35,447 nt of DNA, taken from a virus. Where the stretch lies: positions 1-35,447 of IMG/VR virus record IMGVR_UViG_3300027741_000153; one strand, written 5' to 3'. A program made the translations under genes and the position numbers. Below the pieces are notes generated by a model, which was given only the letters and a program-made list of their open reading frames with translations, ran no database searches and was not told the origin of the DNA. This document shows, in pieces, positions 1 to 18,081 of the stretch. Every line of letters begins with the position of its first letter. Position 1 is the stretch's first letter.

Positions 1-1
1 A

Positions 2-142
2 ACAGAAACACGTGTTACATTTGAATGTAACTTCAAAAAGACTGATGCAAGTCGTAATAGATTATTTTTAGAAACAGTAGATTGCAGCACCAAGACCGAT
101 ACTGCACAATACTGGAGTCTTCCTGTAAAAACGAGAGGCTAA
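2..142 (+). CDS. C-terminal end of a truncated upstream gene, unknown function
   Basis: An open frame enters from the left edge and ends at TAA 140-142, giving the last 46 residues of a protein (ends YWSLPVKTRG). The next gene starts 4 bp later, so it heads the same rightward operon of small proteins. It has two cysteines and alternating hydrophobic and polar residues, which fits a beta-rich structural domain, but I do not recognise the family. Because the neighbours to the right look like virion-side genes (packaging, possible internal head proteins), a structural role is a guess from context only. Confidence 0.6.
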   Translation, partial: TETRVTFECNFKKTDASRNRLFLETVDCSTKTDTAQYWSLPVKTRG

Positions 143-146
143 GCCG

Positions 147-500
147 ATGCGAGCCAGCGAGTTTATAAGCGAAGGAAAAAAAGCAAAAACACACCGAGAC
201 CATGTATCAACCATGCCTGCTAGTATGGTTTATCCTGATATGGACCCAGGCTATGATTATTATCGTTTCATGAATATAGTTGCTGCTCATCCACATCACA
301 AGGCACCGCATGACCACGAGCATTTTCGTGACCATCCATTTGTAAGTGCTTATAGTGATGAAGAAGTAGAAATGTTAAACAATAGCATCAAGGGTCTTGG
401 TCATAAAACAAAGTGGCTTACCAAAACCAAAGGTGTTGAACCTAAATCTACCAATAAAGCAAGTCCAGTTCCACACAACAGTGGCAAGAGAAAGAAATGA
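147..500 (+). CDS. Small MRASEF-family protein, possible packaged internal head protein (paralogue 1)
   Basis: 117 residues. The N-terminus MRASEFISEG resembles the capsid-targeting peptide of T4 internal proteins (EFIAEA type) and ends in I-S-E, fitting the Ile/Leu-x-Glu site cut by T4 prohead protease gp21. The body shares a layout with the genes at 497 and 1061: a VYPDMD-YDYYRF segment near residues 28-42, a YSDEE segment near 69-75, and a C-terminal SPVPHNSGK tail. It is rich in His (residues 48-65) and Lys. The start is the ATG 4 bp after the preceding stop. It overlaps the next gene by 4 bp (ATGA), so translation is probably coupled. The enzymatic function, if any, is unknown; packaging into the head is inferred from the leader peptide only. 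Confidence 0.75.
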   Translation: MRASEFISEGKKAKTHRDHVSTMPASMVYPDMDPGYDYYRFMNIVAAHPHHKAPHDHEHFRDHPFVSAYSDEEVEMLNNSIKGLGHKTKWLTKTKGVEPKSTNKASPVPHNSGKRKK

Positions 501-874
501 GAGCAAGTGAATTTGTAAATGAAGCAAAAGATTATGCTGGTAGTAAGGGAATGTCTCAACAGGCTCTCACAACTATTCCTAATGCACATGTTTATCCTGA
601 ATTAGATAACAGCAGTGGTTATATGGCATATCGTTTTGGTGTTGCGCTTGCCGGTATGCCAGAAAAGAAAATGGCTAAGGCAAGTCCAACTGGTCTTAAG
701 ATGGTAACAATCAGTTATACACCAGCAGAAGAAGAAATTCTTAATGCAACAGCAGCATATTTTGGTACTCCAAAAGTTCAGTTAACACCAGAAGAAAGTA
801 GCGAACCCGACTATGTAAATCCAATTAGTCCAGTTCCACATAATAGCGGTAAAACGAGAAAGAAAAATGGATAA
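497..874 (+). CDS. Small MRASEF-family protein (paralogue 2)
   Basis: 125 residues, paralogous to the genes on both sides. The leader MRASEFVNEA ends in V-N-E, a slightly relaxed version of the Ile/Leu-x-Glu prohead cleavage pattern. The core has IPNAHVYPELD with GYMAYRF (about residues 27-47), then ISYTPAEEEIL (about 70-80), and the tail SPVPHNSGKTRKK, nearly identical to the tail of the gene at 147. The start overlaps the preceding stop (ATGA) and its end overlaps the next gene by 8 bp, so it lies inside one operon. The family recurs in marine T4-like phages as far as I recall; its function is unknown. Confidence 0.75.
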   Translation: MRASEFVNEAKDYAGSKGMSQQALTTIPNAHVYPELDNSSGYMAYRFGVALAGMPEKKMAKASPTGLKMVTISYTPAEEEILNATAAYFGTPKVQLTPEESSEPDYVNPISPVPHNSGKTRKKNG

Positions 875-1064
875 TCTTGCTCAACTTAAAATTCTTGCTG
901 GTGTTAAGAAGCATACATTTACTGAAAATGAAGGCAGCAATATTAGTTTAACTGGTATGGAAAAACGTGCACTAGAAAAGAAAAATAATATTCAACCTGG
1001 TACACAGGAATGGTTCCAACTATGGTTTAGTCGTCCTTACCTTACTGGAGAAAAACCAGTATGA
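867..1064 (+). CDS. Small protein with LAGV leader motif, unknown function
   Basis: 65 residues. It begins MDNLAQLKILAGVKK followed by TFTENEG; the leader resembles two other sites in this window (start of the gene at 6625, and residues 836-854 of the large protein at 3611), all of the form Leu-x-x-Leu-[AS]-Gly-[LV] followed by Glu. The second half, IQPGTQEWFQLWFSRPYLTGE, is aromatic-rich and looks like a conserved binding segment. The start ATG lies inside the last codons of the previous gene and its stop overlaps the next start (ATGA). No enzyme motif is visible. By position and leader it may be a small virion-associated protein, but this is inference. Confidence 0.65.
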   Translation: MDNLAQLKILAGVKKHTFTENEGSNISLTGMEKRALEKKNNIQPGTQEWFQLWFSRPYLTGEKPV

Positions 1065-1453
1065 GAGCCAAAGAATTTATAACTGAACAAGAAGATTATG
1101 AAAAAGATTTTTCGGCTGACCACAAAGATTGGGAACCACGTGAAATACCTGGTGCTTTCGTAATTCCTGATGCCAGCGCAAACTTTTATAGAATGTATCG
1201 TTATGGCATTCTAATGGCTCGTAGTCCTGAACCACAGCCAGATGCGTATGATGACCAAACCGCACTTGGCGATAAATTGATTATTGCACCTTACAGTGAT
1301 GGCGATATTGCAACAATGCAAGGTGCAAGTACAGCAAGTGGACACGCAGCAGTAAAATCACACAGCTATAATAATAAAGCTGAACATAGTGACGTAAATC
1401 GTGTTAGTCCAACTGCTAAGTTTGTTCCGACAAAACGTCCATCCCAACGTTAA
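1061..1453 (+). CDS. Small MRAKEF-family protein (paralogue 3)
   Basis: 130 residues, the third and most diverged copy of the family at 147 and 497. The leader MRAKEFITEQ ends in I-T-E, an exact fit to the T4 prohead-protease pattern Ile/Leu-x-Glu. Shared core segments are IPGAFVIPD with MYRYGILMA (about residues 30-52) and IAPYSDGDI (about 74-82); the tail VSPTAKFVPTKRPSQR is basic. It is the last gene of this operon and its stop overlaps the end of the reversed HNH gene by 4 bp. Function unknown; packaging into the head is inferred from the N-terminal peptide. Confidence 0.75.
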   Translation: MRAKEFITEQEDYEKDFSADHKDWEPREIPGAFVIPDASANFYRMYRYGILMARSPEPQPDAYDDQTALGDKLIIAPYSDGDIATMQGASTASGHAAVKSHSYNNKAEHSDVNRVSPTAKFVPTKRPSQR

Positions 1454-1959
1454 CCTACGTAATCTAACCAACTCTTATGCTTAATATTATAATTAAACTG
1501 TTTACGACGAGCAGTTAGCGTCCAGTAATCTGGTCTAAATGGCTCACGAATTGGCTTAATTAACTTATTGCCTTTGTTATGATTGCACTTCTTACATGAT
1601 GTAGCACAGTTTTCCCAATTGGTTTTGCCACCCTTGCTAATAGGAATAACATGGTCAATGTTAAGGTCGTGCGGTTCAAAAGTCTCAGCACAATATTGAC
1701 ACTGAAATAAGTCACGAATATACAGATTCTGGCGGCTAAAGCGAATGCCTTTGCTGAAACTATGATAATCTTTGGTTATTGCAAGCGCAGGCACAAACAT
1801 AGTCGTTGAAGGACTATGAATTTCCCAATCATCGTAGTATTCAAGAATCTTAATACGATCCATAAAATGTAGTTTAACGCTTTGTTGCCATGGTATAACA
1901 CTTAGTGGTAACCATGAAAGTGGTTGATAGTTAGCGTTTAGAATCAGTGTGTCTGACAT
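1450..1959 (-). CDS. HNH endonuclease (free-standing, McrA-like)
   Basis: 169 residues on the minus strand. The C-terminal half holds an HNH nuclease: CQYC (about residues 88-91), DHVIPISKGG (catalytic His about 104), a WENCATSCKKCN block with the second Cys pair and HNKGN. The N-terminal part (LILNANYQPLSWLP and later IRFSRQNLYIRD) matches the widespread bacterial and phage HNH family in which this module precedes the zinc-bound nuclease. It is reversed relative to all genes around it and sits between the small-protein operon and the terminase, the placement expected of a homing-type or otherwise mobile endonuclease. It overlaps the upstream gene's end by 4 bp. Substrate unknown; it is a single-domain nuclease with no visible DNA-modification partner. 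Confidence 0.9.
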   Translation of the reverse strand: MSDTLILNANYQPLSWLPLSVIPWQQSVKLHFMDRIKILEYYDDWEIHSPSTTMFVPALAITKDYHSFSKGIRFSRQNLYIRDLFQCQYCAETFEPHDLNIDHVIPISKGGKTNWENCATSCKKCNHNKGNKLIKPIREPFRPDYWTLTARRKQFNYNIKHKSWLDYVG

Positions 1960-2018
1960 ATAAGTTATTTACTTCTTGTTTGTGACAATTTAATAATACT
2001 ACACATACAAAATATGTC

Positions 2019-2026
2019 AATAAATA
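2019..2026 (+). promoter_or_regulatory. T4-type late promoter octamer before terminase
   Basis: AATAAATA matches the NATAAATA late promoter pattern of T4-like phages. Late transcription starts about 6 nt after the octamer, which here falls on the ATG at 2032. There is no Shine-Dalgarno before either candidate terminase start, so the mRNA may be leaderless. Function is inferred. Confidence 0.5.
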
Positions 2027-2031
2027 TTTGC

Positions 2032-3594
2032 ATGGCTAAACCAATAGAGAATAATTTAACTAAAAAACCGCATAAACGTATGCAAATGACTCAAAAAGAG
2101 ATCATTGAGTTTAGTTTATGTGCTGACCCTGACACTGGACCAGAATATTTTATTAGAAATTTCTTTTATATTCAGCATCCAACACGAGGGAAACTGCAGT
2201 TTGTTCCGTTTGACTATCAAGAAGAATTACTAACAAACTATCATAGTTTTAGATTTAGTATCAATATGCTTGGTCGTCAAATGGGTAAGACTACTATTGC
2301 CGCTGGTTATCTATTGTGGTATGCAATGTTCATTCCTGATAGTACTATTCTTGTGGCAAGTAACAAATATACTGGTGCACAAGAAATTATGCAACGTATT
2401 AGATACGCATATGAAAACTGTCCAGATCACATTCGTGCTGGTGTGGTTGATTATAATAAAGGTTCGCTTGGATTTGATAATGATAGTCGCATTGTAAGTG
2501 CCACCACCACTGAAACAACAGGTCGTGGTATGAGTATTTCACTGCTATACTGTGACGAAATGGCATTCGTTCGTCCTACTATTGCTAAAGAATTTTGGAC
2601 ATCTATTAGTCCTACGCTGTCAACGGGTGGTAAAGCAATTATTACATCTACCCCAAATAATGATGAAGATCAATTTGCAGATATTTGGAAAGAAGCCAAT
2701 AAAAAGTTTGATTCTCATGGCAATGAAACACCATTGGGCAGAAATGGATTTAGCCCATATCTGGCAACATGGGATCGCCATCCAGAACGTGATCGTGATT
2801 GGGCAGAGCGTGAAATGAGCAGCGTTGGCATTGATCGTTTCCGCCGTGAGCATAATTGCGAGTTTATCATCTATGATGAAACACTTATTGCGCCAGGCAT
2901 TCTTGTTGACTTGAATGGAATTGAACCTATTGAAAAACAAGGACAAGTTCGTTGGTATGAAAAACCACAACGCAATCATGTTTATATTGTAGCACTTGAC
3001 CCAAGTCTTGGAACTGGTGGCGATCCTGCTGCTATTGAAGTGTATGATGCAACTACTATGCGTCAAGTAGCAGAGTGGCAACACAACCTTACTATTATTC
3101 AAAAACAAGTGCTAATTATGGCTGAAATCTGCAAGTATATTAAAGAAACAACAGGCAGTGCTGGTGATATCTATTACAGTGTAGAAAACAATACCATCGG
3201 TGAAGCAGCATTAAACGCAGTTGCTGATATTGGTGAAGAAAATATACCAGGCAGTTTCTTAAGTGAACCAAGTAATAGTGGTGGACGTAGGTTCCGTAAA
3301 GGTTTCAATACTACACCAAAGAGTAAGATTGCAGCCTGTTCTAAGTTCAAACTATGGATGGAAACAGGCAAGATTAAACTACATAGTAAGAGTTTAATAA
3401 GTGAACTTAAAACATTTGTTGCACATGGCGTAAGTTATGCAGGTAAAGTTGGTGAAACCGATGACCTTGTAATGGCAACGTTACTTGCAGTTCGTATGAT
3501 TCTACATCTACGCATGTATGATAGTAGAATTAGTGATGGATTGGCTATGGAAGCTGCAGACATCATTCCACCAATGCCATTTGTAATGCTATAA
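2032..3594 (+). CDS. terL: Terminase large subunit (gp17-like DNA packaging motor)
   Basis: About 520 residues from ATG 2032; a frame-compatible ATG at 2014 would add six. I prefer 2032 because the late octamer predicts a transcript beginning there. The ATPase domain has Walker A GRQMGKTT (about residue 81-88) and Walker B LLYCDE (about 171-176), with the coupling motif TSTPNN after it. The RNase H-fold nuclease domain has VALDPSLGTGGDPAA (first Asp about 323), Glu in YYSVENN (about 385) and GETDDLVMA near the end (Asp about 477-478), corresponding to the three acidic residues of T4 gp17. It cuts concatemeric DNA and drives it into the prohead through the portal. Length is slightly under T4 gp17 (610). 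No intron or intein interrupts it. Confidence 0.95.
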   Translation: MAKPIENNLTKKPHKRMQMTQKEIIEFSLCADPDTGPEYFIRNFFYIQHPTRGKLQFVPFDYQEELLTNYHSFRFSINMLGRQMGKTTIAAGYLLWYAMFIPDSTILVASNKYTGAQEIMQRIRYAYENCPDHIRAGVVDYNKGSLGFDNDSRIVSATTTETTGRGMSISLLYCDEMAFVRPTIAKEFWTSISPTLSTGGKAIITSTPNNDEDQFADIWKEANKKFDSHGNETPLGRNGFSPYLATWDRHPERDRDWAEREMSSVGIDRFRREHNCEFIIYDETLIAPGILVDLNGIEPIEKQGQVRWYEKPQRNHVYIVALDPSLGTGGDPAAIEVYDATTMRQVAEWQHNLTIIQKQVLIMAEICKYIKETTGSAGDIYYSVENNTIGEAALNAVADIGEENIPGSFLSEPSNSGGRRFRKGFNTTPKSKIAACSKFKLWMETGKIKLHSKSLISELKTFVAHGVSYAGKVGETDDLVMATLLAVRMILHLRMYDSRISDGLAMEAADIIPPMPFVML

Positions 3595-3610: not shown

Positions 3611-6600
3611 ATGAGTAATTTAAATCAGGCAGCAGAAGATTTATTTTTTAAATTGCGTAATCGTTTTCCTAAAATCAATTTAGGTGACGAGAACGGTAAA
3701 ACTACTGTTGACCCAGAAAAAGGTAGATTTTTTAATTTTACGTATACTGATAAAGACAGTAAGCGTGAGTATGGCGATATTAGTTGTTCTTTGATTGATG
3801 GCAGTAGCCTTAAGGTATTCTTTGATACAGCAATTACTGAACGCATGTTGCCAGAAGATAAGAATTATTGGTATCAATTTTTGCGTGAATTGCGTCGTAT
3901 GGCAAAAAGCCATATGCTGAACTTTGATGTTCGTGATATCACAAAAGACACATTGAGCCGCCGTGATTATGAATACATGATTAAACTTAACCCTGAGAAG
4001 AAGAAAATGAAAGAATCATTAGAAGAAAGCCGTGTTGTATGGCAACGTCGTGGCAAGATTAGTGAAGGCGATCTTAATAATGTTCGCATCCATGTTGTTC
4101 ATAACGAAAAGATGTTAGAAAATCCAAACAACCGTTTGCTTAAAGTAGATCGTATCTATTGCGTAAATGAAGCAGGTGAAAAGTTCCTTCTTCCATTTAA
4201 AAGCGTTAGTGGCGCAAAGGCAATGGCAAATCACATTAGTCGTGGTGGCAATCCTTATGATTCTAATGGTCAGGTTATCTCTCGTGCAGTAAACGAAATG
4301 CGCAATCTCGGTCGTTTTGCGAGTGCTACTCGCAGTCGCACATTTGAAGCAGCAGAAGCAGGCAATGTTATCAAGGCTGCACAAGAAATGAAAGAAAGCA
4401 TTAAGCGTCATCTTAATCGTTTAAGCAATAACAGCCGTTCATTTGCTGAAAGCCTAACAGCATTAAATGATTTCTTGAGTGAACAAAGCGACGATGTAAC
4501 CGAAGTAAAAGGTTGGTTTACACAACAAACATATAATGAAAACCTAGACAATTATATTGCAAGTGCCGCTGGCGCATACAAAAAACTAAGAGAGAACGCT
4601 ATGAATAAACTTGATGAAGTCAGTGGTGCAGTTGAAAAGAAAATTCTTGATCCTAACTTTAAGTTGGTCCTAAAAGCAGATAGCGGACTTGATAAACTTA
4701 TGGTAACTCGCCAATATACCGATACAACTGCTCTACTAACTGCAGTGCTTGGTGATATTGCTAACCGTTTAATTGCAAAGGATGGAGATGATGTTGCTAA
4801 CTTTGCTGCACTTATGGGTGACCTTGTAAGCAGTGAAGGTGAAGCATTTGGTCAACGCAGCGAACCAGAATATAACCGTGATAAGAAACTTGCTATTGTT
4901 CTTGCACAAAAGTATATGAAAGACTTAGGCAAAATTCATAAGAACCCAGAGTATGCTGGTGAAGTTCGTAAAGAACCTAATGCTCGCCCAAGCGATCTTC
5001 GCAAGGTCAAGAGTGCTGGAGATGAGTTTGAAGAAAGCATTATGGGTCTTGGTGAAAGCCCAATGAGTCAACCAGTGCAAATTAATGGTAAGCAAGTTGA
5101 TGTTGATTCATTGGAAGTTGTTATTCCTGATACATCAGATTACCCAGATTTCAGCGATGCTTATTTTAGTGCTGGTTTATATACCGATGGCACGCCTATT
5201 GATGACCAAACCCTTGAAGACTTAGGTAGAACTCACGGTGATTTGCTACATATGACAGCACATGACCAAGTTCAAGGCATGTATGATGAAAGTGCTGTTA
5301 GTGAAGAAGAAGTAGAAGAAAGCGGACTTCAATATTATACTGGTAAAAAGAAGTATGGCAAAGATGGCATGGCTGCACTTGCAAAAGCAGGTCGTGAAGG
5401 CGCAAGTCAAGAAGAACTTGGCAAGATTAAAGACAAGTATATGAAAGAAGAAGACATTGATGAAGCAGATATGACTCGTCGTGGATTTCTTGGAGCATTG
5501 GGTGCAGGATTAGGTGCTGCCGCTCTTGGCTCTATTGCTGGTTCATCAAACGCCAAGGCTGACAATGCGATTGATCCAAAGGGACCAGATAGAAAAAAAG
5601 AATTGGTTCAACTAATTAAAACTGGAAAAATAGCAAGCTATGATGATTATGTAAATTGGGCATTTAGTAAAGCAGTAGAAGATGCTCCCATTCTTAAAAA
5701 AGGTGTCAAAGATGCAACCGATCAGGAGATCAAAAATACAGTCATTCATTTTGTAACATCTAGCCTAAATTTACCTAATTATAGTAAAATTTCAAACCAA
5801 TTAGCACACAGTGGTACAACCACTTTTGATTGGAGTAATCCACCAACGCAAATTCGTCAAGTAATCCAAAGTTATCTTACAAATATGAAAGCAAATGAGA
5901 GTGCAGTAAATGAAGAACCAAACGAAGGCAATGAGTTTAGTGGTGCATTAGCTGCAGCAAAGGCTAGTGGCAAGAAAGAATTTAAAGTAGATGGCAAAAC
6001 CTATCCAGTTAAGGAAGGCGATGCAAGCGAACCAGAACATCCAGATGCTGATGCTGATGACAAGCGTTGGGATGATCAAGAAGACGTAAAAGAAAATAAA
6101 CCAAAGGGAACCCCAATGAAAAACAAAAATATTGAAGAAATGCGTAAATTGGCAGGTCTGCCTTTGATGGAAAACTATATCTACGCACAAGAAGAAAGCG
6201 AAGATGAAGAAAATGCTCCTGATACTGTTCCGCACAGTGCTAATGAGCCAAGTGCTGACGACAAGGCAGAATATGATCAAGAAGGTCGTATGGCTAAGAG
6301 TGATTTGAAAACTGCAAAAGATGCAGCAGACGAACTGCGTTCAATTCTTGATGATGAAGAAAATCTTCCAGAATGGGTTCAGGCCAAGATTACAAAGGCT
6401 GTTGATTATCTAGACACTGCTCGTGACTATATGAAAGACAACGATGTAGAATATACTGACGAAAGCATTGAAGAAGCCAAGAAGAAAGGCAAGCCAGATT
6501 ATCTTGACTTTGACAAAGATGGCGACAAGAAAGAAACAATGAAGAAGGCACTTAGCGATAAGAAGAAGATGAAAGAAAGTGCTGATCTAACTTGGTTACA

Positions 6601-6628
6601 AGCAGTAGCGGGAATTGTTAGAAAATGA
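3611..6628 (+). CDS. Large mosaic protein, probable virion protein, with internal Tat-like signal
   Basis: 1005 residues, strongly charged, no enzyme motif recognised. Modules seen in order: an N-terminal globular part (1-130); an Ala-rich helical part (about 200-460); an INGKQVDVDSLEV-DYPDFSDAYFSAG module (about 491-560); GKKKYGKDGMAALAKAGREGAS (578-599); an I-D-E site (616-618) followed directly by a twin-arginine signal (622-650); a small domain (651-765); EFKVDGKTYPVKEG (790-803); an internal leader-like segment (836-854); and a tail with DFDKDGDKKE (966-975), an EF-hand-like acidic loop. Several modules recur in marine T4-like phage proteins as I remember them. It follows terminase in the late region and overlaps the next gene by 4 bp. 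It could be a virion, scaffold-like or ejected protein; processing by prohead protease is inferred. Confidence 0.8.
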   Translation: MSNLNQAAEDLFFKLRNRFPKINLGDENGKTTVDPEKGRFFNFTYTDKDSKREYGDISCSLIDGSSLKVFFDTAITERMLPEDKNYWYQFLRELRRMAKSHMLNFDVRDITKDTLSRRDYEYMIKLNPEKKKMKESLEESRVVWQRRGKISEGDLNNVRIHVVHNEKMLENPNNRLLKVDRIYCVNEAGEKFLLPFKSVSGAKAMANHISRGGNPYDSNGQVISRAVNEMRNLGRFASATRSRTFEAAEAGNVIKAAQEMKESIKRHLNRLSNNSRSFAESLTALNDFLSEQSDDVTEVKGWFTQQTYNENLDNYIASAAGAYKKLRENAMNKLDEVSGAVEKKILDPNFKLVLKADSGLDKLMVTRQYTDTTALLTAVLGDIANRLIAKDGDDVANFAALMGDLVSSEGEAFGQRSEPEYNRDKKLAIVLAQKYMKDLGKIHKNPEYAGEVRKEPNARPSDLRKVKSAGDEFEESIMGLGESPMSQPVQINGKQVDVDSLEVVIPDTSDYPDFSDAYFSAGLYTDGTPIDDQTLEDLGRTHGDLLHMTAHDQVQGMYDESAVSEEEVEESGLQYYTGKKKYGKDGMAALAKAGREGASQEELGKIKDKYMKEEDIDEADMTRRGFLGALGAGLGAAALGSIAGSSNAKADNAIDPKGPDRKKELVQLIKTGKIASYDDYVNWAFSKAVEDAPILKKGVKDATDQEIKNTVIHFVTSSLNLPNYSKISNQLAHSGTTTFDWSNPPTQIRQVIQSYLTNMKANESAVNEEPNEGNEFSGALAAAKASGKKEFKVDGKTYPVKEGDASEPEHPDADADDKRWDDQEDVKENKPKGTPMKNKNIEEMRKLAGLPLMENYIYAQEESEDEENAPDTVPHSANEPSADDKAEYDQEGRMAKSDLKTAKDAADELRSILDDEENLPEWVQAKITKAVDYLDTARDYMKDNDVEYTDESIEEAKKKGKPDYLDFDKDGDKKETMKKALSDKKKMKESADLTWLQAVAGIVRK
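5474..5560 (+). other. Internal twin-arginine (Tat) signal-like segment
   Basis: Codes residues 622-650 of the 1005-residue protein. It shows every part of a Tat signal: TRRGFLG (consensus S/T-R-R-x-F-L-K), a Gly/Ala/Leu hydrophobic stretch (629-643), and a c-region ending AKA before DN, a fit to signal peptidase I. A Met (621) directly precedes it, and an I-D-E site three to five residues before that would expose the signal if cut by a prohead protease. Function unknown; the match is by eye. Confidence 0.6.
6116..6628 (+). CDS. Possible nested in-frame gene (C-terminal 170 residues of the mosaic protein)
   Basis: Inside the 1005-residue gene an in-frame ATG at 6116 is preceded at 6 nt by AAAGGGA (6103-6109), a better ribosome site than the parent gene has. 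The product would begin MKNKNIEEMRKLAGLPLMEN, a leader of the same kind as those starting the genes at 867 and 6625. In-frame nested products are known for phage morphogenesis genes (lambda C and Nu3). Contents: acidic linker, a helical part (about residues 60-110 of the short form) and the EF-hand-like tail. It could equally be only a domain boundary within one long protein. Confidence 0.35.
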   Translation: MKNKNIEEMRKLAGLPLMENYIYAQEESEDEENAPDTVPHSANEPSADDKAEYDQEGRMAKSDLKTAKDAADELRSILDDEENLPEWVQAKITKAVDYLDTARDYMKDNDVEYTDESIEEAKKKGKPDYLDFDKDGDKKETMKKALSDKKKMKESADLTWLQAVAGIVRK

Positions 6629-6867
6629 TTGACGCAATTTCAGATATTAAGAGACTTAGTGGTCTTGTTGAATCAGAACAAGTAAATGAAGCAGCAATGC
6701 GAACTATTGATGATGCAATAAACGCACTTGCAAACTTGCGCCAACGTGCAAAAGAAATGCAGATCAATCATGTCAATACTGGTGGTCTTTCTAATGACGT
6801 TGTAGAAGAATTATATAATGTAATATTATTTTTAGAAAAACATAGGGATATAATGCACAATGGCTGA
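6625..6867 (+). CDS. Small helical protein with LSGL leader motif
   Basis: 80 residues. It starts MIDAISDIKRLSGLVESEQVNEA: the same leader type as at 867 and at residue 836 of the preceding protein, with L-V-E and V-N-E sites that resemble prohead-protease cuts. The remainder (AMRTIDDAINALANLRQRAKEM and onwards) is predicted helical by composition. Its start overlaps the stop of the 1005-residue gene (ATGA), so it is translationally coupled to it; its own end overlaps the next gene by 8 bp. Function unknown; likely works with, or is packaged like, its upstream neighbour. Confidence 0.65.
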   Translation: MIDAISDIKRLSGLVESEQVNEAAMRTIDDAINALANLRQRAKEMQINHVNTGGLSNDVVEELYNVILFLEKHRDIMHNG

Positions 6868-8956: not shown

Positions 8957-9736
8957 ATGAAATTTGTTTGGTCTAAAACAGGCGATTATATTGAGTTTGA
9001 CTCATTCAATAATAATTTTCTAGAATTAGTCATCGATGAATGGAATAAAAGTTCTATTAATAAGTTTACCTTTGACAAAAAACTTGATGTTATTTTAGAA
9101 AAAGATAACTTAGATAAAAATTTAAATTTAGTTAATGATTTTTTAAAAAAATTAAATGTATCTCCATTTGTATGTAAATTTGATGATTTAAATCAAGATT
9201 CATTAAATTTATTACATAAGGAATGGGTGTTGTTTCATATTAACAATTCAGCAATATCAATGCTATTAAATAAAAATAAAATTTTAAAAGATGCATTTAG
9301 TGATATAAACATTAGTATTCATCGTTTAGAAAGTATATTTTCTATAACATTGAATAACAATAGTGTTATCTCAGTTCGTAACCCCTATAAAGAATCAATT
9401 ACCACTTTTAATCAGACAAATCTTTATTTTCATAATTCAAACCTTGGCAGATCAAGTTATAGCAAGTGGAAAAACAATGACAAAAGTATTCATGGATTAG
9501 ATAGAAATGACATGAGTGAAGTATACGGTATTATAGAGTTTAATTTACATGTACCACATACGGTATTACCACCTATAGAATATCAAAATTGGTGTAAAGA
9601 AAATAAAATTGAGTGTGCTGGAAATAAAATATCTATAGGAAATTTTAAAAATTTACAAGATAACCTTACTATTTACAGAAATTTGTTTGTAAAAAATTTT
9701 AATATCGATGATAATTATTGTTTTTTAGAAATTTAA
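8957..9736 (+). CDS. AT-rich orphan protein, unknown function
   Basis: 259 residues, dominated by Asn, Lys, Asp, Ile and Leu with A/T-ending codons, noticeably unlike the flanking gp32 and uvsX genes. It starts MKFVWSKTGDYIEFDSF. The second half has NPYKESITTFNQTNLYFHNSNLGRSSYSKW, ENKIECAGNKI and a HVPHTVLPPIEY segment. No membrane segment, no recognised motif. It lies between the gp32 terminator and the uvsX promoter as a one-gene cassette, with at best a weak TTGGAAA ribosome site. Composition and placement suggest a later insertion of the same style as 32437-34069. I do not recognise a family. Confidence 0.75.
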   Translation: MKFVWSKTGDYIEFDSFNNNFLELVIDEWNKSSINKFTFDKKLDVILEKDNLDKNLNLVNDFLKKLNVSPFVCKFDDLNQDSLNLLHKEWVLFHINNSAISMLLNKNKILKDAFSDINISIHRLESIFSITLNNNSVISVRNPYKESITTFNQTNLYFHNSNLGRSSYSKWKNNDKSIHGLDRNDMSEVYGIIEFNLHVPHTVLPPIEYQNWCKENKIECAGNKISIGNFKNLQDNLTIYRNLFVKNFNIDDNYCFLEI

Positions 9737-9737
9737 A

Positions 9738-9766
9738 TTGATCTAATCCCCCCCAACGGTTATAAT
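9738..9766 (+). promoter_or_regulatory. Sigma70-type promoter for uvsX
   Basis: TTGATC (9738-9743), 17-bp spacer, TATAAT (9761-9766). The predicted start near 9773 leaves about 12 nt of leader containing the ribosome site AGGAG before ATG 9785. The spacer holds a run of seven C. Confidence 0.7.
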
Positions 9767-9784
9767 AAAATAATAGGAGAAACT

Positions 9785-10834
9785 ATGGCTAAACCATTTG
9801 ACATTTCAAAATTTCGTAAAAGTCTTACCAAGAGTATTGAAGGTCTCAGTATTGGATATAATGATCCAACTGATTGGGTCTCAACGGGTAACTATACACT
9901 TAACTATTTAATTAGTGGTGACTTTAATAAGGGTATTCCGCTAGGCAAGGTTACTGTATTTGCTGGCGAGTCTGGCGCAGGCAAGAGTTATATCTGCAGT
10001 GGTAATATTGTTCGTCATGCACAGGAACAAGGCATTTATGTTGTTCTTGTTGATAGTGAAAACGCACTTGACGAAGATTGGCTTAAGGCACTTGGTGTAG
10101 ATACCAGTGAAGAAAAACTTCTTAAACTTAATATGGCAATGATTGATGATGTTGCCAAGACAATCAGTGAGTTTATGAAAGAATATCGCACAATGCCAGA
10201 AGATGGTCGTCCAAAGGTGTTATTTGTGATTGACTCGCTTGGAATGTTGCTTACTCCAACTGACCTTAATCAGTTTGAAGCAGGTGATCTTAAAGGCGAC
10301 ATGGGACGTAAGCCAAAGGCGTTAACTGCGCTGGTTCGTAACTGTGTTAATATGTTCGGTGCAGCAAATGTTGGTATGGTAGCAACCAACCATACCTATG
10401 CATCACAGGATATGTTTGATCCAGATGATAAGATTTCGGGTGGTCAAGGTTTTATCTATGCTTCTTCTATTGTTGTTGCTATGCGTAAGTTAAAGTTGAA
10501 AACTGATGAAGATGGCAATAAAACTACAACAGTCAATGGTATTCGTGCTGCGTGTAAGATTATGAAGACACGCTATGCCAAGCCATTTGAAAGTGTTCAA
10601 GTTGAAATTCCATATAAAACTGGTATGAGTCCGTACAGTGGATTGATTGATATGCTTGAAAGTCAAGGTATTCTTGTTAAGGCTGGCAATATGTTGCAAT
10701 ATACAAGTCCTGTTACTGGCGAGATTACCAAAGCATTTCGTAAAAACTGGACAGATGAACAACTTAATATAATTATGAGTGAGTATGCAAAACATACTCC
10801 TGTTACGAATAAGGAAGAAACCGAAGATGAGTGA
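9785..10834 (+). CDS. uvsX: UvsX, RecA-like recombinase
   Basis: 349 residues. It forms filaments on ssDNA and catalyses strand exchange for recombination-dependent replication, loaded by UvsY in competition with gp32. Walker A is GESGAGKS (about residues 61-68), followed by VVLVDSENALD; Walker B is VLFVIDSLG (about 144-152); the RecA-type segment ATNHTYASQDMF and SGGQGF follow. The start has AGGAG 4-8 nt before the ATG and its own promoter. It overlaps the next small gene by 8 bp and uvsY comes after that, a compact recombination operon. Length is near T4 UvsX (391), somewhat shorter. Confidence 0.95.
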   Translation: MAKPFDISKFRKSLTKSIEGLSIGYNDPTDWVSTGNYTLNYLISGDFNKGIPLGKVTVFAGESGAGKSYICSGNIVRHAQEQGIYVVLVDSENALDEDWLKALGVDTSEEKLLKLNMAMIDDVAKTISEFMKEYRTMPEDGRPKVLFVIDSLGMLLTPTDLNQFEAGDLKGDMGRKPKALTALVRNCVNMFGAANVGMVATNHTYASQDMFDPDDKISGGQGFIYASSIVVAMRKLKLKTDEDGNKTTTVNGIRAACKIMKTRYAKPFESVQVEIPYKTGMSPYSGLIDMLESQGILVKAGNMLQYTSPVTGEITKAFRKNWTDEQLNIIMSEYAKHTPVTNKEETEDE

Positions 10835-11566: not shown

Positions 11567-12586
11567 ATGAAGAAAGCACTTATTACAGGCATTGCCGGTC
11601 AAGACGGCAGTTATCTAGCAGAACTTCTGCTTAACAAAGGTTATCAAGTTCATGGTCTTATTCGCCGCAGCGCAAACTTTGACCACCCAAATATTCAAGA
11701 TGTTAAGGATCAAGTAACATTTCACAATGGTGATTTGAGTGATTCAAATAGCATCCGTAATCTTATTGACAAGGTAGAACCAGATGAGATTTATAATCTT
11801 GCTGCACAAAGCCATGTTAAGGTATCATTTGATATGCCAGAGTTAACTGGTGATACAAATGCTCTTGGACCGCTACGTATCCTAGATAGCATTCGTAGTC
11901 TTAAATTAACAAATAAGACCAAGTTCTATCAGGCATCAACCAGTGAAATGTTTGGTATCCAGAAGTTTAACCCACAGAAAGAAGATACTCCTTTCTATCC
12001 TGGTTCCCCTTACAGTGCAGCCAAGTTGTATGCTTATTGGATCACGGTAAACTATCGTGAAAGTTATAAGATTTTCGGTTGCAATGGTCTGCTATTCAAC
12101 CATGAATCTCCTCGTCGTGGTGAACTCTTTGTTACACGTAAGATTACCAAAGCATTTGCTAACATGGTATTGGGCAAGCAAAAGGTGTTGGAACTTGGTA
12201 ATATGGATAGTCTTCGTGATTGGGGTCACGCCAAAGATTATGTTCGTGCAATGTGGATGATGCTACAACACGAAACGCCAGATGATTATGTTGTTGCAAC
12301 AGGCGTTCAAAGCAGCATCCGTGATTTCTGTAACTCAACTGCTGAATACTTTGGTATCAAGTTAGTTTGGGAAGGAACCGGCATTAATGAAGTTGCTCGT
12401 AATTCTGTAACTGGTGATGTAATGATTAAGGTCAACCCAGAGTTCTATCGTCCAGTTGATGTTGTTAATATTCAAGGTGACGCTACCAAGGTTCGTGAAG
12501 TTCTTGGTTGGAAGCCAGAATATACACTACAAGACCTTGTTAACGACATGTGCGAAACCGATTACAATTTGGCAAAGAAAGGTTGA
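11567..12586 (+). CDS. gmd: GDP-mannose 4,6-dehydratase
   Basis: 339 residues. It converts GDP-D-mannose to GDP-4-keto-6-deoxy-D-mannose, the precursor of fucose, rhamnose, perosamine and colitose type sugars. SDR features: nucleotide-binding TGIAGQDGS (7-15), RRSANFDHP, NLAAQSHV, catalytic STSEMFG (Thr/Ser/Glu about 125-127) and YSAAK (Tyr149, Lys153), FNHESPRRGE, and RDWGHAKDYVRAMW. All are diagnostic of Gmd. Ribosome site ACGAGG 6-11 nt before the ATG. It opens a sugar cassette that continues to about 22110, with the next start only 2 bp after its stop. Slightly shorter than E. coli Gmd (373). gmd is known in several marine T4-like phages. Confidence 0.95.
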   Translation: MKKALITGIAGQDGSYLAELLLNKGYQVHGLIRRSANFDHPNIQDVKDQVTFHNGDLSDSNSIRNLIDKVEPDEIYNLAAQSHVKVSFDMPELTGDTNALGPLRILDSIRSLKLTNKTKFYQASTSEMFGIQKFNPQKEDTPFYPGSPYSAAKLYAYWITVNYRESYKIFGCNGLLFNHESPRRGELFVTRKITKAFANMVLGKQKVLELGNMDSLRDWGHAKDYVRAMWMMLQHETPDDYVVATGVQSSIRDFCNSTAEYFGIKLVWEGTGINEVARNSVTGDVMIKVNPEFYRPVDVVNIQGDATKVREVLGWKPEYTLQDLVNDMCETDYNLAKKG

Positions 12587-12588
12587 AC

Positions 12589-13011
12589 ATGGGACAGTTA
12601 GTATTTGCACCAATTAGTGTTGGCGATTTGTGGGACAAGATTACTATTCTCAACATCAAGTTAGAAGAATATAGTAAGGTTGACAATGAAACCAATCGTA
12701 TCAAGATTGAGTATGTTAATAAAGAATTAGCAGAACTCATGAAGATTATTGATGAACTTGAAGAACCAACTGAGCCAGTCGATGATGTTGTCAAGAATCT
12801 CAAGGCAGTAAATCATATGATTTGGCGACATGAAGATGTTGTGCGAACATATGGCACAGACTTAAAGCCATACGACAGTGAGTTTATCAAATTAGTCACT
12901 GATGTTCATCAAGGTAACAAAGACCGTTGCCAATACAAATTAGATATCAATAAACTTTACAATAGCGATATTGTAGAAACAAAGTCATATATCAACGAGG
13001 GATTGAAATGA
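12589..13011 (+). CDS. DUF6165-like protein in sugar cassette
   Basis: 140 residues from ATG 12589 (MGQLVFAPISVGDLWDKITILNIKLEEY). The PISVGxLxDKITILxIK opening and the repeated pattern of Asn/Glu-Leu helices match my memory of the DUF6165 family, usually found beside polysaccharide genes. It is all-helical, probably a coiled-coil pair (IKIEYVNKELAELMKIIDELEE). Starts 2 bp after gmd and overlaps the methyltransferase by 4 bp. An in-frame ATG at 12550 would overlap gmd and has no ribosome site. Biochemical role unknown. Confidence 0.75.
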   Translation: MGQLVFAPISVGDLWDKITILNIKLEEYSKVDNETNRIKIEYVNKELAELMKIIDELEEPTEPVDDVVKNLKAVNHMIWRHEDVVRTYGTDLKPYDSEFIKLVTDVHQGNKDRCQYKLDINKLYNSDIVETKSYINEGLK

Positions 13012-14228
13012 AGAAGATTTTAGAATTAGGTGATCACTACGTAAGTGATTTTATGAAGCCAGGCGCAGAAATGCGTGAAACAAAGCCATGGAGTCTTGAT
13101 TTGTATCTTGACGAAACCATTGGCGCAGTTCGTCTTGACGGTGTTGCACCACTTGACAAGATGTATGGTCAGTATTGGTATCGTAGTGGTATCAATACAA
13201 GTATGACAAAGCAATTAGGTGAAATCGTAAGCGAGATTACTAGTCGTACAAAGATTAACGATGGCGATATCTGGTTGGATATTGCTTGTAATGATGGTAC
13301 GCTACTTCGCCAAGTTCCTGATAACATGATTAAGTTGGGTATTGATCCTGCCGATGATTCATATTTGGAAGAAAGCCAAAAAGTTGCCGAAGTCAAGCAA
13401 GATTTCTTTAGCAAGGAAGCATATGAAAGCCTTGGTTATGGCAATGAAAAGGCAAAGGTTATTACTTGTATTGCTATGTTCTATGACTTAAACGATCCAC
13501 GTCCATTCATTCGTGATGCTCATTCTATTTTGGCAGATGATGGTGTATTCGTTCTTCAAATGAGTTATACTCCGCTTATGTTGAAGCAGTTGGCATTTGA
13601 TAACATTTGCCATGAACACGTTTATTACTATGATCTTCGTAGTATTCGTAAATTGTTTGCAAGTGAAGGTTTTGTTCTGCGTGATTGTTCACTAAATGAC
13701 ACTAATGGTGGTTCATTCCGTGTAACTTTCCAGAAGGATACAAGCGACGAGAAGACCTTTGCTACACGACAGATTCGTGACGTTTGTGAAATGCGTATTT
13801 CTTCAACTCTTGCATACGAAACACAACATTGGGATATCACCGATGTAAAACTTTGGAAAGACTTTGGTGACAATATCTGGTCATTGAAGGCGCAAGTTCT
13901 TGATTTCTTGCATCAAGCAAAGGCAGAAGGAAAGAAGGTTTATGGATATGGTGCATCAACCAAAGGCAATACGCTGTTGCAGTTGTTTGGAATTACACCA
14001 GATTTGCTAACTGCTATTGCTGAACGTTCACCATATAAGTTTGGTTTACAGACTGTCGGAACTAATATTCCGATTGTTAGCGAAGAAGAAATGAGAGCAG
14101 CTAACCCCGATTACTTGCTTGTTCTTCCTTGGCACTTTATTGATGAGTTCGTTAAGCGTGAAGGTGACTTCATCGCAAAGGGCGGTAAGCTAGTAGTTCC
14201 TTGCCCAACCTTCCAGGTTATTGGATAA
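13008..14228 (+). CDS. Sugar C-methyltransferase (class I SAM, NovU/TylCIII type)
   Basis: 406 residues. Family members transfer a methyl from SAM to C-3 (or C-5) of nucleotide-linked 4-keto-6-deoxysugars. The SAM site is WLDIACNDGTLL (about residues 89-100), then IDPADDS and ICHEHVYYYDLRSI (about 203-216), the invariant HEH-Y motif of this family. The C-terminal domain has VYGYGASTKGNTLLQ (about 312-326), typical of the Methyltransf_14 part. The Cys-rich zinc knuckle at the family's N-terminus is not visible, so the N-terminus is shortened. GAGGG ribosome site before the ATG. Its likely substrate is the GDP-4-keto-6-deoxymannose made by Gmd two genes upstream; that link is inference. Confidence 0.85.
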   Translation: MKKILELGDHYVSDFMKPGAEMRETKPWSLDLYLDETIGAVRLDGVAPLDKMYGQYWYRSGINTSMTKQLGEIVSEITSRTKINDGDIWLDIACNDGTLLRQVPDNMIKLGIDPADDSYLEESQKVAEVKQDFFSKEAYESLGYGNEKAKVITCIAMFYDLNDPRPFIRDAHSILADDGVFVLQMSYTPLMLKQLAFDNICHEHVYYYDLRSIRKLFASEGFVLRDCSLNDTNGGSFRVTFQKDTSDEKTFATRQIRDVCEMRISSTLAYETQHWDITDVKLWKDFGDNIWSLKAQVLDFLHQAKAEGKKVYGYGASTKGNTLLQLFGITPDLLTAIAERSPYKFGLQTVGTNIPIVSEEEMRAANPDYLLVLPWHFIDEFVKREGDFIAKGGKLVVPCPTFQVIG

Positions 14229-14231
14229 TCT

Positions 14232-15149
14232 ATGGAGAACATAGTATTCTTTAATCACTGGCATTACGGTGACCTATTCTCCACGAGAGGATGGGTTGCC
14301 GATATCAAGCGACAGATGCCAGAAACAAATTTTTATTATGCACATAAGAAAAATGGTCGTGCAATTGTTGACCTTGTAGAGACACTTGATGAAGAAAACA
14401 ACCGCATGGTTCTTGATGGCATTGATCAATGGAAACGTTTTGGCAGTGACGATGATACCGTTCTTATCAACACGTGGGTAGGGTCATATATGGGATTATG
14501 GGCTAACACCCATCCTTCCTACGTTAGTCATCAACGTATTATTGGCGAGTGTTACAACAACCTGCGTCAGCAATTTGGTATTGACCTCAAATTAAGTGAT
14601 GATGTGTGGGATTATGTTCCACAGATTGATTATAGTGCATATAATCGTGCTGCTGTAGACGACAATAGCAATTTAGCAGGTAACGTATACCTATTCTGCA
14701 ATAGTGCAGTAGCAAGTAAGCAAAGCAGCATGGATAATATGCAGAAGATTATCGAATATGTTGCAGCAAATCATAGTAAAGATACATTTGTAGTTACTGA
14801 AAAGTTTGAAACTAAAGTTGATAACATTGTCTTTACAAGTGATATCTTTAATGACACTTGTGATTTGTGTGATATTTCTTATCTATCAACAAAGGTTAAT
14901 TTAGTTGTTGGTAAGAATAGTGGACCATTCACTTATGCCAATACTAAACAAAACTTGCTTGATAAGAACAAGGTATTTGTAAACTTTAGTCATAAGCCAG
15001 AAGATGTTTTGCCATATGGTTTAGATATTAAGGCTGACTTCCGCCATAGTGATGTTACCTATTCAAGTCCAGCAGTAAAAATTATTGAAACTGCTATTAA
15101 CGATATCTATAATAATAAACAAATTAGCGGCTACCACATAGTAAAGTAA
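14232..15149 (+). CDS. Putative glycosyltransferase (GT-B-like)
   Basis: 305 residues. The opening IVFFNHWHYGDLFSTRGWVADI resembles glycosyltransferases of the ADP-heptose/GT9 kind that start with a strand and a G-D loop, and the end VNLVVGKNSGPFTYANT resembles their nucleotide-binding loop where a Gly/Ser-rich turn binds the phosphates. A DDSxQY-like beta-alpha middle domain (VYLFCNSAVASKQ) is present. Starts 3 bp after the methyltransferase and is followed after 5 bp by the next glycosyltransferase. Donor and acceptor are unknown; the assignment rests on fold-like pattern and context. Confidence 0.6.
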   Translation: MENIVFFNHWHYGDLFSTRGWVADIKRQMPETNFYYAHKKNGRAIVDLVETLDEENNRMVLDGIDQWKRFGSDDDTVLINTWVGSYMGLWANTHPSYVSHQRIIGECYNNLRQQFGIDLKLSDDVWDYVPQIDYSAYNRAAVDDNSNLAGNVYLFCNSAVASKQSSMDNMQKIIEYVAANHSKDTFVVTEKFETKVDNIVFTSDIFNDTCDLCDISYLSTKVNLVVGKNSGPFTYANTKQNLLDKNKVFVNFSHKPEDVLPYGLDIKADFRHSDVTYSSPAVKIIETAINDIYNNKQISGYHIVK

Positions 15150-15154
15150 ATTAA

Positions 15155-16138
15155 ATGACACATAGATTTTTATTTGTTAATACAAGAGAAGCATCTTGTA
15201 GTATATACGAGAAAGGTTTAACTTTCTATGAACTAATGAAATCTTCTCCTAATTGGAAGATGGATTATTCAGAAGTTCAATTTCTTAATCGTAATGAATT
15301 GCATAACGGTCGTATTGTTGGACCTGATGGTCGTAGTCCACCACAATATGATGCTATTATATGGAACTATCATCCATACACCATGCGTGAAATGGAACAC
15401 ATTGATTGCACACAGTTCTATAAGTTTCCTGGTGTAAACTATTGTATGGTAGTAGAAGAAATACGTGACGATGCTAATCCAGTAGTAGATAATGTTCCCG
15501 ATAGTTTCAATGGATATATTGTTCTTGATCCTACAAAGAAATTTGGCAATCCACGTTTCCATGCTTTTCCACGGGTCTTGCCAAAGATTGTTACTAGTTA
15601 CAAATTTGTGCCAAAGGTTCCTGTTATTGGTTGCTATGGATATGTAACTGTTGACAAAGGTTTTGATTTAATTGTCAAGGCAGCAAGTGAAGAGTTTGAG
15701 CAATCAATTGTCCGTATTAATCTACCACAAGCAGCATACAGTGACCAGAATAAGGCATTGTTAAATCAAGTGTTAGATACTTGTCGTATAGCTGCTCGTG
15801 ATAATGTTGAATTGCGTATTACACATGATTTTATGAGCAATGATGAATTGATTGATTGGTGTTCACAAAATACTGTAAATGCTTTCTTCTATCAACGTCA
15901 TATTTTAGGTATTGCTGCTGCACCTGACCAAGCAATTGCAAGTGGTCGTCCTATTGCGGTAAGTTCTAATCCTACATTCCGCCATATTTTACAATATCAG
16001 AAGCCATACCCAGAAATGAGTTTGCGTGAAACAATTGAAAATGGCGGCGAGTATGTTCGACAGATTCAACAAGACTGGAGCCAAGAACGTTGCATTGAAC
16101 GACTAACAGAAATTATATTTGACAGCGGTGAGGAATAA
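15155..16138 (+). CDS. Glycosyltransferase, GT-B type (paralogue A)
   Basis: 327 residues. One of three related proteins in this cassette (also 17101 and 18078). Shared features: an N-terminal strand domain with YDAIIWNYHPYTMRE (about 67-81), the interdomain link with KVPVIGCYGYVTVDKGFD (about 150-167), a VELRITHDFMSNDELIDWCSQNTVNAFFY block (about 210-238) and the nucleotide-sugar contact region DQAIASGRPIAVSS (about 249-262), then RHILQYQKPYPEMSLRETIENG. These are GT4-like GT-B marks. Closest to paralogue C at 18078 (RHI-QY-PPYP-S shared). It overlaps nothing; GME follows with one base between them. Acceptor and donor not known. Confidence 0.75.
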   Translation: MTHRFLFVNTREASCSIYEKGLTFYELMKSSPNWKMDYSEVQFLNRNELHNGRIVGPDGRSPPQYDAIIWNYHPYTMREMEHIDCTQFYKFPGVNYCMVVEEIRDDANPVVDNVPDSFNGYIVLDPTKKFGNPRFHAFPRVLPKIVTSYKFVPKVPVIGCYGYVTVDKGFDLIVKAASEEFEQSIVRINLPQAAYSDQNKALLNQVLDTCRIAARDNVELRITHDFMSNDELIDWCSQNTVNAFFYQRHILGIAAAPDQAIASGRPIAVSSNPTFRHILQYQKPYPEMSLRETIENGGEYVRQIQQDWSQERCIERLTEIIFDSGEE

Positions 16139-16139
16139 A

Positions 16140-17114
16140 ATGAAAACAGCAATTGTTATTGGTGCTGGTGGATTTATAGGTAGTCATGTTGCCAATCGTC
16201 TCAAAGCAGATGGTTATTGGGTTCGTGGAGTTGATCTAAAAGCACCTGAGTTCGCCTCAACTGCATGTGATGAGTTTTTTATTGGCGATTGTCGCAACCC
16301 ACAAGTAGTTGATTTTATTATTGACCAAAAGGTTGATCAGGTATTCCAACTTGCTGCTGACATGGGGGGAATTGGTTATATTGGTAATGTTGATAATGAT
16401 GCCGATGTTATGACAAACAGTGCTAAGATTAACCTTAATGTAGCAGATGCTGCTTGCCGCCAAGGTGTTGAACAAGTATTCTTTAGCAGCAGTGCTTGCG
16501 TTTACAATGAATACAATCAGGTAGACCCACAGAATCCAGATTGCCGTGAAGATACTGCATATCCTGCACATCCTGATACTGAATATGGTTGGGAAAAATT
16601 GTTTAGTGAGCGACTTTATCTTTCGTATAATCGTCAGTATGGTATGCGCAACCGTATTGCACGTTTCCACAACATATTTGGTGAACATGGAACATGGCGT
16701 GGTGGTAAGGAAAAAGCACCAGCAGCAATTTGTCGTAAAGTTGCAATGGCAAGTGAAGGTGGCGAAATTGAAGTATGGGGTGATGGATTACAAACTCGTT
16801 CATTCTTACATATTGATGACTGCGTAGAAGGCATTATGCGTCTTATGAACAGTGACTTTGAAGGTCCAGTAAACATTGGCAGCGATTATCTTATTTCAAT
16901 TAATGACCTTGTGCTAATGGTAAGTGGCATTGCGGACAAAACAATTACTATTAAGCATATAGATGGGCCGCAAGGTGTTCGTGGTCGCAACAGCAATAAT
17001 GATCTTATTAGGGAAAAACTAAACTGGGTGCCTACTCAAGATTTACATGCTGGTTTAACTAAAACATATAATTGGATTGCGCAACAAGTAAAGGCAGCAA
17101 ATGAAAAAATCTAA
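16140..17114 (+). CDS. gme: GDP-mannose 3',5'-epimerase (plant GME type)
   Basis: 324 residues from ATG 16140 (GGTGAGGA 3-10 nt upstream), rather than the in-frame ATG 16119. SDR fold with IGAGGFIGSHV (7-17). It matches plant GDP-mannose 3',5'-epimerase segment by segment: ADMGGIGYIG, SSSACVYNEY, TEYGWEKL, RFHNIFGEHGTWRGGKEKAPAAICRK, WGDGLQTRSFLHIDDCVEG, NIGSDYLISIND, GPQGVRGRNSNNDLI. The four catalytic residues known in Arabidopsis GME (Cys145, Tyr174, Lys178, Lys217) align with Cys120, Tyr149, Lys153 and Lys192, a constant offset of 25. It should interconvert GDP-D-mannose with GDP-L-galactose or GDP-L-gulose. It sits among glycosyltransferases and shares the GDP-mannose pool with Gmd. Overlaps the next gene by 14 bp. 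Confidence 0.92.
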   Translation: MKTAIVIGAGGFIGSHVANRLKADGYWVRGVDLKAPEFASTACDEFFIGDCRNPQVVDFIIDQKVDQVFQLAADMGGIGYIGNVDNDADVMTNSAKINLNVADAACRQGVEQVFFSSSACVYNEYNQVDPQNPDCREDTAYPAHPDTEYGWEKLFSERLYLSYNRQYGMRNRIARFHNIFGEHGTWRGGKEKAPAAICRKVAMASEGGEIEVWGDGLQTRSFLHIDDCVEGIMRLMNSDFEGPVNIGSDYLISINDLVLMVSGIADKTITIKHIDGPQGVRGRNSNNDLIREKLNWVPTQDLHAGLTKTYNWIAQQVKAANEKI

Positions 17115-18081
17115 AATACTTTATGTAACTACGCCAGTTACTGTCGATGATGGTCGTTGCCGCAGTGGTGAAAGTTTAACTGGTGGGTTGCTTGCTGATG
17201 TTCTAGTAAATCATCCTATCTACAATGTTGAAGTTCTTTATACTGATGATAGACAAGAAACTCAACAAAAGATTATGAACTATAGACCAGATGTATGTAT
17301 TTTAAACTATCATCCAGGTGTAAATCCTTGGATGGAAACATTAAATCTACGTTCACTATATCCAGATATGAAAACGTTTTGTATTGTTTATGATAAGGCA
17401 AATCAGTTTGCCGAACAATGGAATCCATACACACATCCTATATGGCAATATATGTTGACCTTTGAGGATAGTGCTGTTGAGAATGAAGGTGTGTTTAGAG
17501 TAAATCACGTTCTACCTGTATCACCCACTGTAAGCTATGAAGAAAAAACTATTCCAGTATTTGGTTGGCAAGGTTTTCCTGCACCGTGGAAAGGTGTTGA
17601 TAAAATGGCAGCACAAGTTCAACACGAATTTGATGAAGCTATTATACGACTGCACATGCCAGATGGATATTTTACACAGCAAAAGAACTTTTATGGTCCA
17701 CAGATCGTTGCTCATGTTAACTCAATCATTACCAAACCTGGTATTAAAATTGAAGTTAGTAATGATTGGCTTGACGAACAAGGCATTGTAAACTGGCTTG
17801 CACAAAATACAGTCAATTGTTATTTTTATGATTATCTTGATGGTGCTGGTATGAGCGGTAGCATTGATTATGCTATCGCTGCAAAGCGTCCTATTGCAAT
17901 GAAAAAGAGCCACCAGTTTAAACCTTATTGGAACTTGGAACCAACTATTTTAATTGAACAAAGTAGTTTAAAACAAATTATTGCTAATGGCACAACACCA
18001 TGGGAACCCATTTATAAGCGTTTTACAAGAGAACAAATATGGGAAGATTTTAATAGAATATTCAGTAGGATTGGATTATGA
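17101..18081 (+). CDS. Glycosyltransferase, GT-B type (paralogue B)
   Basis: 326 residues, the most diverged of the three related glycosyltransferases. Shared blocks: VCILNYHPGVNPW (about 60-72), IPVFGWQGFPAPWKGVDKM (about 150-168), KIEVSNDWLDEQGIVNWLAQNTVNCYFYDY (about 217-246) and SIDYAIAAKRPIAM (about 255-268); it lacks the FRHI-QY-PYP ending motif of the other two. Starts MKKSKILYVTTPVTVDDGRCRSGESLTGG. AAGG lies 8-11 nt before the ATG; it overlaps GME by 14 bp and the next gene by 4 bp, so it is coupled to both. Substrates unknown. Confidence 0.75.
   Translation: MKKSKILYVTTPVTVDDGRCRSGESLTGGLLADVLVNHPIYNVEVLYTDDRQETQQKIMNYRPDVCILNYHPGVNPWMETLNLRSLYPDMKTFCIVYDKANQFAEQWNPYTHPIWQYMLTFEDSAVENEGVFRVNHVLPVSPTVSYEEKTIPVFGWQGFPAPWKGVDKMAAQVQHEFDEAIIRLHMPDGYFTQQKNFYGPQIVAHVNSIITKPGIKIEVSNDWLDEQGIVNWLAQNTVNCYFYDYLDGAGMSGSIDYAIAAKRPIAMKKSHQFKPYWNLEPTILIEQSSLKQIIANGTTPWEPIYKRFTREQIWEDFNRIFSRIGL

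Follow-up and report, generated by a model that had tools for sequence, protein, structure and literature searches.

A probable T4-type capsid-targeting leader on a new protein family encoded upstream of the terminase gene: probable head cargo of uncultivated jumbo phages

What are the three small paralogous proteins, here P1, P2 and P3, that an uncultivated myovirus of the T4 superfamily encodes just upstream of its terminase large subunit (TerL), each beginning with nine residues that resemble the leader of the phage T4 internal head proteins? The window, by which we mean the whole stretch of 35,447 b that was analysed, is an IMG/VR fragment of this virus. Its nearest isolates by TerL are the PA5oct-type Pseudomonas jumbo phages (53% identity), followed by Sinorhizobium phage Phosso and Agrobacterium phage Atu_ph07, and from the neck protein to TerL the genes are ordered as in PA5oct gp291-gp280. 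Besides TerL, the fragment carries other genes of T4-superfamily type. We propose, at a probability of about 0.78, that a T4-superfamily jumbo phage carries P1-P3 as head cargo, a new cargo brought in by a T4-type capsid-targeting leader and cut by the phage protease. The order runs from a gp282-like gene through P1, P2, a gene for 65 aa, P3 and an HNH endonuclease on the opposite strand to TerL, with the following features:

1-142, plus strand: 3' end of an upstream gene of the virion neighbourhood; the relatives' protein starts MNFLDYVAQVDRA and ends AQYWSLPVKTRG
147-500, plus strand: P1, leader-bearing paralogue of 117 aa (ORF, homology, alignment, tree)
147-173, plus strand: P1 leader, MRASEFISE
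497-874, plus strand: P2, leader-bearing paralogue of 125 aa (ORF, homology, alignment, model)
497-523, plus strand: P2 leader, MRASEFVNE (V-x-E)
867-1064, plus strand: 65-aa protein, MDNLAQLKILAGV..., with an N-terminal LxxLAG motif (ORF)
1061-1453, plus strand: P3, leader-bearing paralogue of 130 aa (ORF, homology, alignment, tree)
1061-1087, plus strand: P3 leader, MRAKEFITE
1450-1959, minus strand: HNH endonuclease of 169 aa (PF14279 6e-16, PF01844 4e-15)
2014-3594, plus strand: TerL of the T4 gp17 type (PF03237 1e-15; 53% to PA5oct)
3611-6628, plus strand: modular protein of 1005 aa, homologue of PA5oct gp278, with a C-terminal LTWLQAVAGIVRK motif
5456-5560, plus strand: twin-arginine-like segment inside the preceding ORF, DIDEADMTRRGFLGALGAG..., just after a candidate IDE cleavage site
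6625-6867, plus strand: 80-aa protein with an N-terminal IKRLSGL motif

The relative locus L004 is collinear with the window and has the full-length version (9400-9996) of the gene truncated at 1-142. The frames of P1, P2, the 65-aa gene and P3 overlap by 4-8 bases in an operon-like manner, with ATGA junctions at 497 and 1061, and the fourth gene of this set (867-1064), sitting between P2 and P3 and missed by the earlier note, has orthologues upstream of TerL in many relatives. Most close relatives have the HNH endonuclease gene at the same place between P3 and TerL, likewise inverted; it is possibly a mobile element fixed beside the packaging gene. Downstream of TerL, the 1005-aa protein matches PA5oct gp278 by tblastn (6e-25); some of its stretches (for example KPDYLDFDKDGDKKE and GALAAAKASGKKEFKVDGKTYPV) are of a type met again elsewhere in the proteins of these phages, and its homologues in relatives range from about 450 to 1080 aa. 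Further along lie a sugar-nucleotide cassette at 11567-19865 (GDP-mannose 4,6-dehydratase, C-methyltransferase, two NAD-dependent epimerases and further ORFs, some of which gave no Pfam match), which possibly supplies a modified sugar on the virion or DNA, a PIG-L type deacetylase (27972-28496) and a radical SAM/SPASM protein (32437-33342).

An earlier note on this DNA had described three leader-bearing paralogues at 147-1453, and the ORFs and leaders are present as claimed. Their paralogy is directly evident (E 8e-14 for P2 and 3e-5 for P3 against P1) and divergent, with identities to P1 of 38% and 29%, respectively. Iterated HMM searches collected more than 150 family members: the first loci gave 75 members and later loci 104 hits, and because some loci overlap the distinct total is somewhat below the sum of the two. 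In a tree of 122 members, P1, P2 and P3 belong to three distinct groups, and relatives have orthologues of each at the same place; the duplications are therefore old. Of 50 loci, 36 have P genes upstream of TerL, always on the TerL strand; copy numbers range from zero to four. The family keeps a conserved core (Y42, R46, A52, E103 and S111-P112), while the mature proteins differ in charge, P1 (pI 9.6) and P2 (8.1) being basic and P3 (5.5) acidic.

The family is new, without a Pfam, PHROG or PDB match or a cultured relative. P1, P2 and P3 gave no Pfam or PHROG match above chance, and the PHROG matches of single members (best 0.0018) were weak and judged to be chance. A tblastn search with P1 found no match in 50,697 phage records, T4 among them; two distant members gave only chance-level matches and no cultured relatives in the phage records, and the GTDB genome collection gave no cultured relative either. 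A first fold model, built from 66 sequences, was poor (pTM 0.36) and its fold search gave no result. The second, of P2 with 122 sequences (pLDDT 85, pTM 0.54), predicts a leader helix and three further helices; it matched no PDB entry with a Z of 2 or more, and its single viral match, at 30% identity, was to an uncharacterised protein from an uncultured phage.

The leader, observed directly in all three proteins, follows the consensus M-[RK]-[AI]-x-E-[FI]-[IV]-x-E over positions 1-9. Among P members, E9 is present in 66/70 and 98/100, E5 in 65/70 and 98/100, and 165/170 have I, L or V at position 7. E5, F6 and E9 are far better kept than the residues downstream, and column entropy averages 1.10 bits over residues 1-9 versus 2.98 bits over residues 10-30. 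Since the leader codons of the three window copies differ at synonymous positions, selection on the leader acts on the peptide. The ending itself had been described as an Ile/Leu-x-Glu protease site, a description that P1 (ISE) and P3 (ITE) fit; in P2 the residue is Val (VNE).

A regular expression built on the window leaders, M[RK]x1-2x[EDQ][FILV][IVLFMC]xE, matches 80 of 2104 N-termini in related loci versus 2 of 9776 internal Met positions, and the 80 N-termini fall into 20 clusters of unrelated bodies. Outside the P family, 19 of 1776 N-termini match versus 0.56 expected when residues 2-14 are shuffled (maximum 4 in 200 shuffles). These counts bear on a reading in which the leader is common through duplication only and the P proteins stay outside the head throughout, serving as late regulators or inhibitors in the cytoplasm. 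It draws on the fact that 58 of the 80 leader-bearing ORFs near TerL are P paralogues, but we regard it as quite improbable, given that the leader is directly seen on about 18 unrelated proteins besides the P family, that the residues just past it diverge freely while it does not, and that it matches the T4 signal.

The unrelated bodies include candidate enzymes. A 338,435-b relative (TerL 88%) encodes about ten leader-bearing proteins, scattered over the contig (for example at 20, 231, 243 and 297 kb), comprising P paralogues, a GNAT acetyltransferase (PF00583, 20.8 bits against a cut-off of 20.7), a twin-arginine protein and proteins of unknown function. In the twin-arginine protein the leader is followed by the signal, MRISEIIVE-APTDVSRRGFLKG (PF10518 0.0007, below the cut-off). 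In another relative, the gene L099:6860-7543, which adjoins a P gene, encodes an ADP-ribosyltransferase-like protein with the leader MRASDFLPE (ART-PolyVal 1.7e-4 and DUF3990 8e-5, both below the cut-off). A leader-bearing GNAT acetyltransferase gene was also observed in the TerL-upstream cluster of a relative (L032:7923-8423). Domains of the ART and GNAT types are known to occur in proteins that phages inject into their hosts (PMC7824862), and the L099 and L032 proteins are, from their sequences, candidate injected enzymes. A lysozyme-like assignment for a further leader protein, L057:2647-4455, was dropped, Pfam giving no match.

Cargo of this kind would call for a prohead protease, and the earlier note had named a gp21-like enzyme elsewhere in the genome as a check. 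The window and a 183-kb relative contain no head module, probably because both are fragments. The 183-kb contig, read whole, has no recognisable protease or capsid gene, and the 338-kb contig was therefore used for the head genes. There, a portal-like protein, two small core proteins, an S77 protease (PF03420, E 1.9e-26), a scaffold-like protein and the capsid protein are encoded in the T4 order. The protease has the histidine and serine contexts of T4 gp21 (GE[LV][ND]HP and GVSSRG), and the neighbouring capsid protein contains KKYLAE|SASAG, in which Leu-x-Glu is the likely cleavage site. The S77 protease is found in all four P-bearing contigs longer than 250 kb, shorter contigs often being fragments without the module. 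The check thus came out in favour of the note through direct observation of protease and capsid site in relatives, the window fragment itself having no module.

Beside the S77 genes, a second short motif recurs. LxxLAG[IL] forms the extreme C-terminus of the scaffold-like protein in 11 of 11 cases (L108-L111, L298-L304; for example NVIDLKRLAGL). It also ends PA5oct gp330 and most of the gp278-like proteins encoded after TerL, and it is N-terminal in the window's 65-aa protein and its orthologues; the T4 gp22 C-terminus has no such motif. This distribution suggests that LxxLAG[IL] could be a second head-assembly tag. As a separate observation, twin-arginine-like signals (DIDEADMTRRGFLGALGAG; MRISEIIVEAPTDVSRRGFLKG) immediately follow the capsid leader or a candidate prohead-protease site at 5456-5560 of the window, in the L029 ORF 8398-11577 and at L126:17068-17964. 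A conserved tandem of leader and Tat signal was unconfirmed, the Tat protein occurring in two contigs only, as identical copies. It is doubtful that many unrelated proteins are loaded by two tags, a cleavable leader and a scaffold-tail-derived LxxLAG[IL], with the cut exposing in some a twin-arginine signal that would direct them, once injected, to the host periplasm.

The records of PA5oct, which carry ESI-MS/MS notes on virion proteins, connect the locus to a virion proteome. A leader-like pattern that follows the window leader, M[KR][AILVFM]x[ED][IVFLM], is present at the N-terminus of 7 of 90 MS-detected proteins versus at most 4 of 419 other ORFs (odds ratio 8.8, p 8e-4), any possible start being counted for the latter and the pattern having been fixed after the list of MS-detected proteins was seen. 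An example of a leader of this kind in PA5oct is MKINDIITE of gp333. Both gp282 and gp278 were detected in virions by MS, and both are homologous to neighbours of the P genes in the window clade. The synteny around TerL between PA5oct gp278-gp282 (Arenbergviridae), several of them with ESI-MS/MS notes, and the window clade is likewise a direct observation. No P family was found in PA5oct, where gp281 occupies its place with another body.

The position of the genes raises a further alternative, that the leader is a permanent docking helix, left uncleaved, with which P binds the portal, TerL or neck and helps to package the DNA or complete the head. Every P gene found near TerL shares the TerL strand and sits 0.4-5.5 kb upstream, in the company of gp4-like and small-terminase-like genes, and the leader is helical in the predicted structure. 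Yet the leader also heads the proteins of the 338-kb contig encoded far from TerL, as well as an acetyltransferase and the ADP-ribosyltransferase-like protein, and Glu9 is retained where a protease would require it. In addition, 14 of the 50 relatives have no P gene upstream of TerL, so that P is probably not essential for packaging. We consider the docking-helix explanation unlikely.

Under the head-cargo reading, the nine-residue leader would dock the P protein onto the prohead core as the head assembles, the phage S77 prohead protease would cut after Glu9, and the mature proteins, of 108-121 residues, would remain in the head with the DNA. Docking, cleavage and packaging in this manner are, in our view, probable. 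By analogy with the T4 internal proteins, the P proteins would then exit together with the DNA and have an early function in the host, perhaps in countering its defences. Injection is somewhat favoured by that analogy, while inhibition of a host defence is a tentative suggestion. A DNA-organising or ejection role is as open as defence inhibition, because the P bodies are more alike than the T4 internal proteins are. Counting against the cargo reading are the V-x-E site of P2, the acidic mature P3, the missing head module of the window and the 183-kb relative, the late fixing of the PA5oct pattern, the failure to find a P family in PA5oct, and the TerL-adjacent location, which also fits a packaging-motor or neck role.

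The sequences as a whole suggest that these phages may carry their own, previously undescribed set of proteins inside the virion. If so, a nine-residue signature would reveal packaged and injected proteins of many uncultivated jumbo phages from sequence, as for the T-even phages, and would point to new early-acting effectors, the ADP-ribosyltransferase-like and acetyltransferase proteins among them. The T4 loading system would also prove more widespread in the T4 superfamily than is apparent from its cultured members.

The likeness to T4 internal-protein leaders, from which the earlier note set out, is borne out by the T4 record, in which ipII and ipIII begin MKTYQEFIAEA and ipI begins MKTFKEFTS...; the expression finds only ipII and ipIII in a test set of 72 T4 ORFs from two genome stretches. 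The ipII/ipIII leader aligns with the P leader from Glu-Phe onwards. Targeting by the T4 leader depends mainly on residues 4 and 7 (Phe), and its processing, by gp21 cleavage after L/I-x-E, on residues 8 (Ile) and 10 (Glu) (PMC9026906). F6, I/V7 and E9 of the P leader correspond to T4 residues 7, 8 and 10, whereas the Tyr at T4 residue 4 has no aromatic counterpart in P, whose leader is shorter by one residue and has Arg-Ala where T4 has Lys-Thr-Tyr. The gp282-like family adjoining the P genes has a nearly T4-identical 10-residue leader, aromatic included (MKSFTEFLTES, MKTYKDYLFES).

Like IPI, IPII and IPIII, the P proteins have a short N-terminal leader with the same residue pattern ending in x-x-Glu, are small when mature, have several genes per genome and occur patchily, and the S77 protease is found in the same phages. 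Unlike T4, where the internal-protein genes lie near genes e or 57, the P genes lie beside TerL, and their bodies have no detectable relation to IPI-III. T4 also has a packaged ADP-ribosyltransferase, Alt; its putative counterpart, the leader-bearing ADP-ribosyltransferase-like protein in the P cluster of one relative, is a separate gene with a different leader. The P family keeps a conserved core, whereas the T4 internal proteins are described as non-homologous to one another; all three are injected and inhibit type IV restriction enzymes (PMC12373910). The polyvalent proteins, which are injected by phages, contain ART and GNAT domains (PMC5512222, PMC7824862), the same kinds of effector domain as the leader-bearing set (ART-like and GNAT); they are large and multidomain, whereas the leader-bearing proteins are small and have a capsid leader.
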